Part shown: positions 636 to 23,175 of the stretch, in pieces
Layout: the number at the start of each line of letters is the position of its first letter
Numbering within the stretch: the stretch's first letter is position 1
Source of the DNA: Dehalococcoidia bacterium
GTDB taxonomy: Bacteria; Chloroflexota; Dehalococcoidia; UBA2979
Assembly (NCBI GenBank): GCA_009692765.1
Contig: SHYQ01000008.1
Coordinates: forward strand, 1 to 32,249
Reading direction: 5' to 3'
Length of the DNA: 32,249 nucleotides
Translations under genes and position numbers: made by a program
The notes under the pieces: model-generated
What the model was told of the DNA's origin: nothing
Seen by the model: the letters and a program-made list of their open reading frames with translations, nothing else
Database searches by the model: none

Positions 636-923
<288 letters not shown>

Positions 924-945: not shown

Positions 946-971
946 GAACGGCCGCCCTCGGGCGGCCGTTC
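946..971 (+). terminator. hairpin terminator downstream of ferredoxin
   Basis: GAACGGCCGCCC / GGGCGGCCGTTC inverted repeat just after the stop codon. Confidence 0.6.
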
Positions 972-999
972 TGCATCCTCGCCGGCGGGGAGGCGGAGC

Positions 1000-1590
1000 C
1001 CTCACCCCCGGCCCCTCTCCCGCTGCGCGGGAGAGGGGAGTCGGAAGGAGACGTGGGGGGCTGCGCCCCCCAAACCCCGGCGGAGGCGCGCGCAGCAGGC
1101 GCGCGCCGGAGCGGCCGGGAGTGGCCCCCCTTCCCCTCTTCCTGCGCGGGAGGGGGCAGAAGTAGGACGTGGGGGCTGCGCCCCCACACCCGGCGGGCGC
1201 ACGCGCGGTAGGCGCGCCGGAGCGGCCGACAGTGGGCCACCTGCCCCTCTTCCTACGCGGGAGGGGGCAATAAGTAGGACGTGGGGGCTCCGCCCCCCAC
1301 CCGGCGGACGCACGCGCGGCAGGCGCGCCGGAGCGGCCGGGAGTGGGCCACCCCCTGCCCCCTTCCTTGCGCTGGAAGGGGGTTGTTGTTTGTGGGGGCT
1401 GCGCCGCCACACCCCGGCGGAGGCACGCGCGGGAGGCGCGCGCCGGATCAGGGACCGCGCGCGCAGCGCCGCGGTAACCTCCCCCTTCCCGGAGGGAAGG
1501 GGGCCGGGGGATGGGCGATCCCTCCTCTGGTTCCGTCCCCCCTCCCTTCCAGGGAGGGGGCCGGGGGGAGGGTTCCCTCTTACCTCGACG
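1000..1590. repeat. mosaic hairpin repeat block A, including 4 tandem units of about 112 bp
   Basis: Units start at about 1053, 1169, 1281 and 1392 with GTGGGGGCTGCGCCCCC-type hairpins, then a GGCAGGCGCGCCGGAGCGGCCG-like segment and a CCCCTTCC/GGGAGGGGG hairpin; a perfect 12-bp-stem palindrome CCCCTCTCCCGC-TGC-GCGGGAGAGGGG lies at 1012-1038. Confidence 0.85.
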
Positions 1591-1598
1591 CCTCCACG

Positions 1599-2069
1599 CT
1601 ACGCCCTCGACGCCCGCGCGGCGCGCCGCTTCGCGATGAGCTCGCGCGCGCGCGGCACCTCGAGGGCCGCCGCGGCGTCGATGCTCCACGCGCGGTACTC
1701 GCCCTCGTGCTCCAGCGCGTAGCGCCAGTAGCGCCTCGGCAGGTGGCGCGCGTAGAGGCTCCACGTCTTCGCCCAGAACGCGCGCGTGTGCTGCGCGCGC
1801 GTCAGCCAGTGCGCCAGCTCGTGCAGCAGCACCATCGTCGCGTCGAACTGACGCCCGACCGACCACACCGTGATCGTCTCGTCCAGATCCCACTGGCCGC
1901 GGCTGAACTCGCCTCGACGCATCGCCACCCCGGCGACGCGCACCGTGGTGTTGCGCTCGACACGGCCGCGCGTGCGCCAGTCGACCACAGGGCCGCGCCG
2001 CCGTCCCTCGTCCTCGAGGATGCGCGCGACCAGGGCGGTCACCCAGAGCGGCGTCGCGACGCGGGCCAT
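1599..2069 (-). CDS. SprT-like zinc metalloprotease domain protein
   Basis: HELAHWLT (HExxH) motif in a 156-aa protein with SprT-like context. Confidence 0.75.
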   Translation of the reverse strand: MARVATPLWVTALVARILEDEGRRRGPVVDWRTRGRVERNTTVRVAGVAMRRGEFSRGQWDLDETITVWSVGRQFDATMVLLHELAHWLTRAQHTRAFWAKTWSLYARHLPRRYWRYALEHEGEYRAWSIDAAAALEVPRARELIAKRRAARASRA

Positions 2070-2102: not shown

Positions 2103-3491
2103 CTAGACCTCGATCTCGTCGAGCGACGGGACGCGCGGCTCGAGCGCGGCGAGGCGCCCCTGCAACGCGCCGATGAGGCCCGCGATCGGCACGCGGATCT
2201 GCGCCATCGTGTCGCGCTCGCGGATCGTGACGGCGTCGTCCGTCAGCGTCTCGAAGTCGACCGTCACGCACAGCGGCGTGCCGATCTCGTCCTGCCGCCG
2301 GTAGCGCCGCCCGATCGACTGCGCGTCGTCGTACTGCGTGCGGAACGTCGGGCGCAGCATCTCCCAGATGCGCCGCGCCGTCGGCTCCAGGGTGTCCTTC
2401 CGCGATAGCGGCAGGATCGCCACCGTGACGGGCGCGATCGCGGGGGCGAAGTGCATCACCACGCGCGAGTCCCCGCCGTCGAGGTGCTGCTCCTCGTACG
2501 CCTCGAGCATCAGCGTCAGCATGATGCGGTCGACGCCCGCCGCCGGCTCGACGACGTGCGGGACAAGGTGCTCGTTGGTATCCGGGTCGAAGTACGTCAG
2601 ACGCTTGCCGGAGTGCGTCGCGTGCTGCGTGAGGTCGTACGCGCCGCGGTGCGCGATCCCCTCCACCTCACCCCACCCCCACGGGTAGTGCACCTCGATG
2701 TCCGCGGTCGCCTTCGAGTAGTGCGACAGCTCGTCGGGCCGGTGGTCGCGCAGGCGCAGGTGCTGCGGGCGGATGCCGAGGCTGTAGTACCAGCGCAGCC
2801 GCTCCTTCTTCCAGTACGCGTGCGTCTCCAGCGATGTCGCGGGGTGGCAGAAGTACTCCATCTCCATCTGCTCGAACTCGCGCGTGCGGAAGATGAACTG
2901 CTTCACCGTGATCTCGTTGCGAAACGACTTGCCGATCTGCGCGACGCCGAAGGGCAGCCGCTTGCGCGTCGTCGTCTGCACGTTGTCGAAGTTGACGAAC
3001 ATGCCCTGCGCCGTCTCGGGGCGCATGAACGCGCGCCCGCTCTCGTCCGCGACGGGGCCCACGATCGTGCTGAGCATCATGTTGAACTTGCGCGGCTCGC
3101 TGAACTTGCCGACGGTGCCGCAGTTGGGGCAGGTGTTCGCCTCGACGTGGTCGGCGCGGAAGCGGCCCTGGCACGATAGGCACTCCACGAGGGGGTCCGT
3201 GAACTCGGCGACGTGGCCGGAGGCCACCCACACCGCCGGGTTCGTGATGATCGCAGCCTCCAGGCCGACGACATCGTCGCGCTCCTGCACCATGGCGCGC
3301 CACCAGCGGTCGCGGATGTTGCGCTTCAGCTCCACGCCCAGCGGCCCGTAGTCGTACGCCGCCGCGAAGCCGCCGTAGATCTCCGCCGAGGGGAAGACGA
3401 ACCCCCGCCGCTTCGCCAGCGACGTGATCGTCTCGAGGTCCGCCTGCATCTCGGAGGGCGGCCCGTCCTCGGGGATCTGCGCGTTCGTCAC
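2103..3491 (-). CDS. glyS: glycyl-tRNA synthetase
   Basis: Single-chain GlyRS: AAAYDYGPLGVELKRNI, FMRPETAQGMFVNF, FRNEITVKQFIFRTREFEQMEMEYF, ANTCPNCG zinc site. Confidence 0.96.
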   Translation of the reverse strand: MTNAQIPEDGPPSEMQADLETITSLAKRRGFVFPSAEIYGGFAAAYDYGPLGVELKRNIRDRWWRAMVQERDDVVGLEAAIITNPAVWVASGHVAEFTDPLVECLSCQGRFRADHVEANTCPNCGTVGKFSEPRKFNMMLSTIVGPVADESGRAFMRPETAQGMFVNFDNVQTTTRKRLPFGVAQIGKSFRNEITVKQFIFRTREFEQMEMEYFCHPATSLETHAYWKKERLRWYYSLGIRPQHLRLRDHRPDELSHYSKATADIEVHYPWGWGEVEGIAHRGAYDLTQHATHSGKRLTYFDPDTNEHLVPHVVEPAAGVDRIMLTLMLEAYEEQHLDGGDSRVVMHFAPAIAPVTVAILPLSRKDTLEPTARRIWEMLRPTFRTQYDDAQSIGRRYRRQDEIGTPLCVTVDFETLTDDAVTIRERDTMAQIRVPIAGLIGALQGRLAALEPRVPSLDEIEV

Positions 3492-6104: not shown

Positions 6105-6125
6105 GGCGCGCAGCATACCTCGTTC

Positions 6126-6170
6126 TGGCAGCCCTGGGTTATGGCATCCCTGGGTTGTGGCAGCCCTGGA
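6126..6170. repeat. 16-bp tandem repeat, about 2.8 copies
   Basis: TGGCAGCCCTGGGTTA / TGGCATCCCTGGGTTG / TGGCAGCCCTGGA. Confidence 0.8.
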
Positions 6171-6273
6171 TCGATGCCCGACTGCCCCGCAGGGCCGGTC
6201 AGGCGAGCCACCGTCCCCATCCGTTATGTTGCGCGGCGACCGCCAGAGCGCCCCCGGCGCCCAGCCCTCGAGA

Positions 6274-6314
6274 CTCAGCCCCCGAGGCTCAGCCCCCGAG
6301 GCTCAGCCCTCGAC
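6274..6314. repeat. 14-bp tandem repeat overlapping the yraN stop codon
   Basis: CTCAGCCCCCGAGG x2 followed by CTCAGCCCTCGACG. Confidence 0.8.
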
Positions 6315-7394: not shown

Positions 7395-7704
7395 AGGGGG
7401 ACCCTCACCCCCGGCCCCTCTCCCGCTTCGCGGGAGAGGGGAGACGGAAAGGGGTAGGGATGGCTGCGCCCCAACCCCCCGCAGGACGCGCACAACGGGC
7501 GCGCCCGCCGGGCGCGGCTTGGTGCGCCCTCACCCTGCCCTCTCCCACTGACGTGGGCGAGGGTTCTGATCTGCGTTCGAGGCGCGCCTGCCGCGCGCCG
7601 TTCCGCCGGGAGCGCGAAGGGCGCAGCCCCCTCGCATCACCCTGGTGCCTTCTCCTCACCTCTCCCGCTTCGCGGGAGAGGTGCCGGGGGTGAGGGTCCC
7701 CCTC
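7395..7704. repeat. 310-bp repeat element with inverted termini (block B)
   Basis: GAGGGGGACCCTCACCCCCGGC at 7395 is matched in reverse complement at the right end (to 7704); both ends carry the C(C/A)CCTCTCCCGC...GCGGGAGAGG hairpin. Confidence 0.85.
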
Positions 7705-10004: not shown

Positions 10005-10425
10005 GGCGGCCCCTCTCCCGGCCCCTCCCCTGCGCGGGGAGGGGGGTCAGCAAGGGGAGATCCCCCATCCCCCCGGCCCCCTTCCCTCCGGGAAGGGGGA
10101 GGTCGCCGCGGCGCTGCGCGCGTTCACCATCCCAGGCGCTCCCCACGCGTTCGTTCGCTGGCGTCTCGGCCCGCCTCCGCCGGGAGCGCGAGGGGCGCAG
10201 CCCGCTCGCATCTCTTGCTGCTTCCCTGGCGGGAAGGGGGCTTTCGGATCTCGGCGTGCGCCTGCCGCGCCCGCCTCCGCCGGGAGCGCGACGGGGCGCA
10301 GTCCGCTCGCATCTCTTGCTGCTTCTGACTCCCTCTCCTGCGAAGCGGGAGAGGGGCCGGGGGTGAGGGTTCTCCCTCCCGCGCAGGGAGGGGGGAGGGG
10401 GCCGCCGCGCTCAGTCGCGCGGGCA
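10005..10425. repeat. mosaic hairpin repeat block C with an internal 56-57 bp direct repeat
   Basis: GCCCGCCTCCGCCGGGAGCGCGA(C)GGGGCGCAG(C/T)CCGCTCGCATCTCTTGCTGCTTC at about 10169-10224 and 10269-10325, plus several CCCCTTCC/GGAAGGGG-type hairpins. Confidence 0.85.
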
Positions 10426-14539: not shown

Positions 14540-14790
14540 GAGGCGGCCCACCCCCTGCCCCCTCCCTGCGCGGGAGGGGGTTCAAGAAGGAGAAAGGTAA
14601 TGCGAGGGGGCTGCGCCCCTCGCGCTCCCAGCGGAACGCGCGCGGCAGGCGCGCGATCCGAGGCGGAGCGCGAGGCCGCGCGATCCGAAAGCCCCCTTCC
14701 CGCGAGGGAAGGGGGTTGGGGGATGGGCGAAATCTCATTCTGATGTCAGACCCCCTCCCGCGCAGGGAGGGGGTAGGGGGTGGGCCGCCC
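14540..14790. repeat. mosaic hairpin repeat block D
   Basis: CCCCCTCCCTGCGCGGGAGGGGG hairpin, GCGAGGGGGCTGCGCCCCTCGCGCTCCCAGCGGAACGCGCGCGGCAGGCGCGCG core, and further CCCCCTTCCCGCGAGGGAAGGGGG hairpins. Confidence 0.85.
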
Positions 14791-22934: not shown

Positions 22935-23175
22935 TCCGGGGGCGGCCACCCCCTGCCCCTTCCTGCGCGGGAAGGGAACCCTCACCCCCGGCCCCTCTCC
23001 CGCTCCGCGGGAGAGGGGAGGAGAAGGCAGCAGGGTGATGCGAGGGGGCTGCGCCCCTCGCGCTCCCGGCGGAACGGCGCGCGGCAGGCGCGCCTCGAAC
23101 GCAGATCAGAATCCTCGCCCACGGCAGTGGGAGCGGGCAGGGTAAGGGCGCACAACCAGCGCGCCCTGCGGGGGT
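22935..23175. repeat. mosaic hairpin repeat block E
   Basis: 22978-23152 aligns to the reverse complement of 7522-7697 with about 11 mismatches over about 175 bp. Confidence 0.9.

Follow-up and report, generated by a model that had tools for sequence, protein, structure and literature searches.

The DNA between a ferredoxin gene and a SprT-like gene in this Dehalococcoidia genome carries a block of repeated hairpins, and the locus raises the question of whether that block belongs to its two neighbors or to something larger. The first-pass annotation treated it as a local feature between the two genes. We find that it is actually one expanded copy of a genome-wide repeat, and we consider it probable that the array arose by local amplification of one copy of a mosaic palindromic repeat that is BIME-like, non-autonomous and restricted to one genus; the repeat family has probably not been described previously. 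The window, meaning the whole stretch of 32,249 nucleotides that was analyzed, is the complete contig C49 of a 1.26-Mb, 67-contig MAG estimated to be 75.6% complete.

The array itself stands out clearly. TRF reported a tandem repeat at 1050-1441 with a period of 111, 3.5 copies and 81% matches, and its score of 481 was the highest in the window by a wide margin. Starts of the core formed by two hairpin modules, A and B, fell at 1056, 1171, 1283 and 1394. The resulting spacing of 115, 112 and 111 confirms the four-unit tandem array initially placed at 1053-1500 with periods of 116, 112 and 111. Folded on either strand, 1002-1576 beat 100 of 100 dinucleotide shuffles (z -5.4 and -7.9), and the four diverged copies are far above chance level. 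No exact repeat inside the array is longer than 24 nt. Long ORFs run across the array; they were rejected as chance open frames, none being called by the coding model, and a coding reading was likewise set aside given that the periods are not constant multiples of three. The window had no Rfam match at the gathering score. Elsewhere in the window, tandem repeats with short units of 16 and 14 bp occur at 6122-6169 and 6250-6313 and, by eye, are unlike the family consensus.

Comparison with dispersed copies changed how the units are read. They had been phased as A-B-C, which is shifted by one module: the dispersed copies show C-A-B, and the first C of the array begins at about 999. Nor does the block end at about 1500, since a small hairpin, D, and then a pair of C modules in inverted orientation (c) close it near 1575. 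In the phase of the family, the whole array thus has the form (C-A-B)x4-D-c-c and covers positions from about 999 to about 1575. Unit 1, like the others on the plus strand, comprises module C at 999..1046 (CCCTCACCCCCGG plus the hairpin CCCCTCTCCCGC/GCGGGAGAGGGG), module A at 1053..1072 (GTGGGGGGC-TGC-GCCCCCC) and module B at 1085..1107 (GGCGCGCGC-AGCAG-GCGCGCGCC). It is followed at 1108..1124 by the array-specific spacer GGAGCGGCCGGGAGTGG, which recurs on the same strand at 1219-1235 and 1330-1346. Unit 2 occupies 1126..1219 (C 1126-1156, A 1169-1187, B ~1197-1219), unit 3 occupies 1240..1330 (C 1240-1268, A 1281-1299, B ~1308-1330) and unit 4 occupies 1354..1444 (C 1354-1382, A 1391-1411, B 1422-1444). 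Unit 4 is without the spacer present 3´ of units 1-3 and runs into D-c-c. Module D (ACCGCGCGCGCAGCGCCGCGGT, 1454..1475, plus strand) was delimited by eye from the alignment of copies, and, also by eye, this hairpin stands ahead of inverted C in many dispersed copies. The inverted modules c1 (1481..1515, CCCATCCCCCGGCCCCCTTCCC... on the minus strand) and c2 (1536..1573, minus strand) follow, the latter about 25 nt downstream of the SprT-like stop codon. Only one match to a terminator with a U-tract was found in 900-1700; it coincides with the C hairpin of unit 4 (1357-1383) and is followed by TTGTTGTTTGT.

The ferredoxin gene (4Fe-4S; 636..923, plus strand; Pfam Fer4, E=4.5e-12) lies upstream of the array and is followed by a terminator-like hairpin, GAACGGCCGCCC-TC-GGGCGGCCGTTC (946..971, plus strand), which has a perfect 12-bp stem and lies outside the repeat. 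A hairpin stands at the same place behind the ferredoxin stop codon in all eight relatives inspected, with differing stem sequences. The idea that the array is the ferredoxin terminator was rejected, because this conserved hairpin of the gene's own stands before the array. On the other side, the SprT-like gene (1599..2069, minus strand; HELAH motif) is convergent with ferredoxin. Its small protein had no Pfam match at 0.001, and the family's 43 other genomes yielded no homolog at E<=0.001. Since this gene was found in the one genome alone, the gap between ferredoxin and the glycyl-tRNA synthetase-like gene (2103..3491, minus strand) was compared across relatives instead. The synthetase is nearest to those of Chloroflexota MAGs (86% and 87%, in alignments covering all or part of the protein), with 81% to a MAG titled Dehalococcoidia and 62% identity to Tepidiforma flava, which puts the organism within or close to Dehalococcoidia. 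It adjoins ferredoxin in two relatives, G005 and G012, and no SprT-like gene was found in either. In G005 the two genes face each other across a repeat-free gap; the gap in G012 carries a repeat copy in another arrangement.

The repeat is dispersed across the genome. BLAST with the consensus unit hit 64 places, a profile search of ten contigs totaling 353 kb found 87 A-B cores, and a covariance model found at least 118 copies genome-wide. According to the first-pass annotation, the core is single or paired outside the array, and within the window this stood: single cores lie at 7582..7631 (minus strand), at 23044..23093 (plus strand) and at 14606..14654 (plus strand), the last inside a C-A-B-c-c element (14549-14782), and two cores in direct orientation lie at 10172..10303 (starts 10172 and 10256, minus strand). 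Genome-wide it did not hold, and further arrays are described below.

Alignment of copies with their flanks revealed a fixed module order, C-A-B(-D)-c-c. Module C is CCCTCACCCCCGG plus a hairpin, or one of the flavors CCCATCCCCC and CCCACCCCC, and in dispersed copies a spacer of about 10-24 nt separates it from A. Module A takes the form GTGGGGGC-TGC-GCCCCCAC or GCGAGGGGGC-TGC-GCCCCTCGC and is followed by CCGGCGGA and then by module B, with a stem of 7-9 bp and a loop that is mostly GGCAG or GGTAG. Downstream of B the small hairpin D is often present, as are inverted C modules, singly or in pairs. The orientation rules are strict: C ahead of A-B shared its orientation in all 69 cases, and neighboring inverted core pairs had B inside in 11 cases and the reverse facing in none (4 to 0 in the congeners), while 22 of the 33 neighboring core pairs were in direct orientation. 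Short GC-rich hairpins, with C modules lying outward at the boundaries, make up the basic element. Groupings per gap include CAc, CAcc, CAac and Cc, and the commonest, CA (16), is one-sided. A motif like GTCGAGGACTGA...GGGGCGGCCCA or GTCGAGGTGCTGCG often stands between the stop codon and module C in the 353 kb; the GTCGAGGACTGA-like motif is perhaps a further module or the true edge of the element.

The family is confined to intergenic gaps. Genes were called with a coding-potential finder scripted ad hoc, which gave a coding fraction of 0.817 over the 353 kb. Although 82% of this sequence is coding, none of the 87 cores and none of the 159 C modules fell inside a gene. Cores were present in 35 of 52 convergent gaps (67%), compared with 18 of 233 tandem gaps (8%; p=4e-19 for convergent versus tandem) and 6 of 52 divergent gaps (12%); this preference was not reproduced in three congeners, where copy numbers are small. 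At gene 3´ ends the outermost C pointed away from the gene in 73 cases and the other way in 2. Inverted C adjoined the 5´ end of a downstream gene at a ratio of 14:2, a pattern more in keeping with an element that has two ends than with a strand-specific terminator. In just 7 of 97 gaps did a stem of at least 8 bp separate the stop codon from the first module. Terminator hairpins that generally precede C modules were considered and dismissed, such stems being no more enriched ahead of C (4.3%) than in random stretches (4.0%). The 8 nt following C modules in the 353 kb are G/A-rich, not T-rich. In most cases C is the first strong hairpin encountered past the stop codon, where it may act as a 3´-end RNA structure.

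Local expansion of the element, as the first-pass annotation had proposed for this block, is borne out by the private spacer: GGAGCGGCCGGGAGTGG (variant GGAGCGGCCGACAGTGG) stands behind B of units 1-3 and is absent behind all further repeat copies in 436 kb. Units 2 and 3 form a sister pair with 91% identity across the aligned stretch, and unit 1 shares 89% identity with dispersed copies but 78% with unit 2. Such expansion recurs, with independent arrays in other gaps. Five direct units with a period of about 162 bp occupy C62 18848-19640 (L156), in a convergent gap of 1304 bp, and three of the five carry a private spacer found nowhere else. On the minus strand of C44 (3266-3940, L020) there are five to six C-A-B units with a period of about 128 bp, including a nearly identical pair, and smaller arrays of other periods occur at C1 and in G012. 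The simplest history of the array at the ferredoxin locus would begin with a single C-A-B-D-c-c element in the gap, in which C-A-B plus local flank was duplicated at least two times, with the units diverging afterwards.

The repeat has a narrow range. The A-B composite was detected in four of five congeners, at fewer copies (15, 8, 5, 4 and 0 detectable), and its one match outside the genus, in G010, is marginal, so that the composite is practically confined to one genus. The congeners too have C before A, with GTGAGGGGCTGCGCCCCTCAC as A. Other genera of the family (G005 L038 and G010 L037) also have copies of module A with a downstream CTCCC; their upstream sequence differs (ACCCGCC...CACCC), suggesting different module partners for A in these genomes. 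Viral contigs contained no exact core match, and the open-access literature, of which coverage was partial, yielded no account of a comparable repeat family from Dehalococcoidia, which makes weak evidence.

The usual explanation for REP-type repeats is a RAYT transposase. No Y1 transposase (RAYT, PF01797) was found in the MAG and its five congeners, incomplete genomes all, while control genomes were positive; TnpB and IS110 transposases were likewise not found in these six genomes, nor was DDE_Tnp_1 (PF01609) in the genome that carries the array, again with positive controls. Transposases are often lost from incomplete MAGs. As no mobilizing enzyme was found, we infer the mobility of the repeat from its distribution.

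The varied stems and similar loops of the third hairpin had been taken to hint at structural constraint, a suggestion that found support for stem B only. Stem B comes in several self-complementary types (ACGGCGCGC/GCGCGCC, GGCGTGCGC/GCGCACGCC and AACGCGCGC/GCGCGCGTC). An arm-swap test on B gave z=7.7 with relatedness uncontrolled, and of five both-side changes in 21 aligned copies four lay in helix B, in a comparison with shuffles that also ignore relatedness. Because the arm-swap test ignores relatedness, we prefer a tree-aware null in which the same substitutions were replayed along the tree on random stem columns in 500 simulations. Against this null, the fraction of paired cells in stem B was 0.944 versus 0.825 +/- 0.039 (reached in 0 of 500), and same-branch double compensations numbered 2 versus 0.35 expected (17 of 500), a marginal result. 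Stem A showed no pairing excess. An R-scape-like all-pairs test of the A-B core with a phylogenetic null yielded no significant column pair, and the covariation above background that the constraint idea had led one to look for did not appear. Overall, at limited power, there is moderate support for structural constraint on stem B and none for A.

How could such an element arise and grow? Copies may have been spread by an enzyme that recognizes hairpin DNA and that has since been lost, is supplied by another element, or lies in the unassembled part of the genome. They would survive mainly past gene 3´ ends, where insertion spares coding sequence and promoters. Tandem duplication of C-A-B and its flank could then occur by unequal recombination, slippage or the same enzyme, after which repeated homology would yield arrays of four to six units. 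Where transcribed, C may act as a 3´-end structure, a secondary role that would be unneeded for ferredoxin.

It is worth asking whether that role could be the primary one. If the modules were functional RNA 3´-end structures, either terminators without a U-tract or mRNA stabilizers, under selection gene by gene, the array would be a series of terminators. The enrichment behind gene 3´ ends and the 73:2 orientation of C there would follow naturally, as would the kept pairing of stem B and the scarcity of gaps with their own stem of at least 8 bp before the first module (7 of 97). We think this unlikely, given that the conserved ferredoxin hairpin already precedes the array, that the sequence after C is G/A-rich rather than T-rich, that inverted C also stands at the 5´ end of downstream genes (14:2), and that the element is missing from most 3´ ends and from orthologous gaps in relatives. 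The same inverted modules could be seen as the terminal inverted repeats of a MITE derived from a DDE insertion sequence, and C...c does bound many gaps (CAc, CAcc, CAac and Cc). Such an origin is rather improbable for a genome in which no DDE_Tnp_1 was found and for ends that are hairpins themselves, often doubled, with many copies one-sided, as in the 16 CA groupings.

The convergent enrichment and the tandem arrays would also be consistent with a putative chromosome-organizing site, bound by gyrase or a nucleoid protein in convergent gaps where positive supercoils meet, as proposed for BIME-2, whose arrays bind gyrase (PMC2817692). The far lower detectable copy numbers in congeners (0 to 15, against at least 118) make this very unlikely. 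There is next to no likelihood that the array is an assembly artifact or chimera. Although the MAG is fragmented into 67 contigs, the units are just 56-88% identical over their aligned length, and with exact repeats of at most 24 nt short reads should resolve the array, making a collapsed assembly unlikely; both flanking genes are on one contig, and arrays recur on other contigs.

With more than 100 copies in about 1.3 Mb and RAYT found in none of the six genomes, the family, with its strict module grammar and repeated local expansion, offers a natural case in which to ask how such repeats can spread and grow independently of RAYTs. A bolder and doubtful reading is that it represents a self-contained class of multi-hairpin mosaics in Dehalococcoidia, spread and amplified either by an enzyme other than a RAYT or solely by the replication and repair machinery of the host, in which the mechanism of dispersal would dictate that C lies outward and B inward. 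For strains of this lineage, the array could further be used as a marker that varies in length.

Several known systems resemble this repeat in part. Like prokaryotic MITEs it is short and non-coding, with inverted C near both ends in many copies; unlike them, it comes without a related transposase that we could find. The BIMEs of E. coli are mosaics built outside genes from palindromic units and linkers, and they show inverted pairs as well as tandem expansion at some loci (PMC2817692, PMC8266576); the repeat shares with BIMEs its extragenic mosaic palindromes, inverted pairs and local tandem growth (PMC2817692, PMC8266576, PMC3733652). It differs in having several dissimilar hairpin modules in one fixed order, in array units that are all direct where BIME-2 arrays alternate, and in having no GTAG tag beside module A and no RAYT gene found. 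Within 14 nt 5´ of module A, GTAG occurred in 2 of 87 copies, GTGG in 2 of 87 and CGTC in 0 of 87 (the ends of C and B were inspected by eye only); GTAG followed by GC does occur in the B hairpin of 28 of 85 copies, at a loop position rather than at a palindrome end. With no tag beside A and no RAYT found, we do not file the repeat under either REP superfamily or under REPINs. The REPINs of Pseudomonas fluorescens SBW25 (PMC3116915) are likewise inverted doublets that could form larger hairpins, and by eye module A (GGGGGCTGCGCCCCC) is similar to their palindromic core GGGGGCTTGCCCCC, although likeness between GC-rich palindromes is weak evidence of kinship and, unlike for REPINs, RAYT was not found here.

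The GTAG- and CGTC-tagged REP superfamilies reach into the Chloroflexota with GTAG-23 of Thermomicrobium roseum, whose REPs are clustered (PMC3733652). The repeat has in common with them hairpins in high copy, a preference for convergent gaps and gene 3´ ends, and dimers with a preferred facing, and CGTC REPs are similarly without a dedicated transposase (PMC3733652). Unlike these REPs, however, the repeat described here is a composite of three or four hairpins, and the head-to-tail arrangement that is absent or under-represented among them (PMC3733652) is common in this family.
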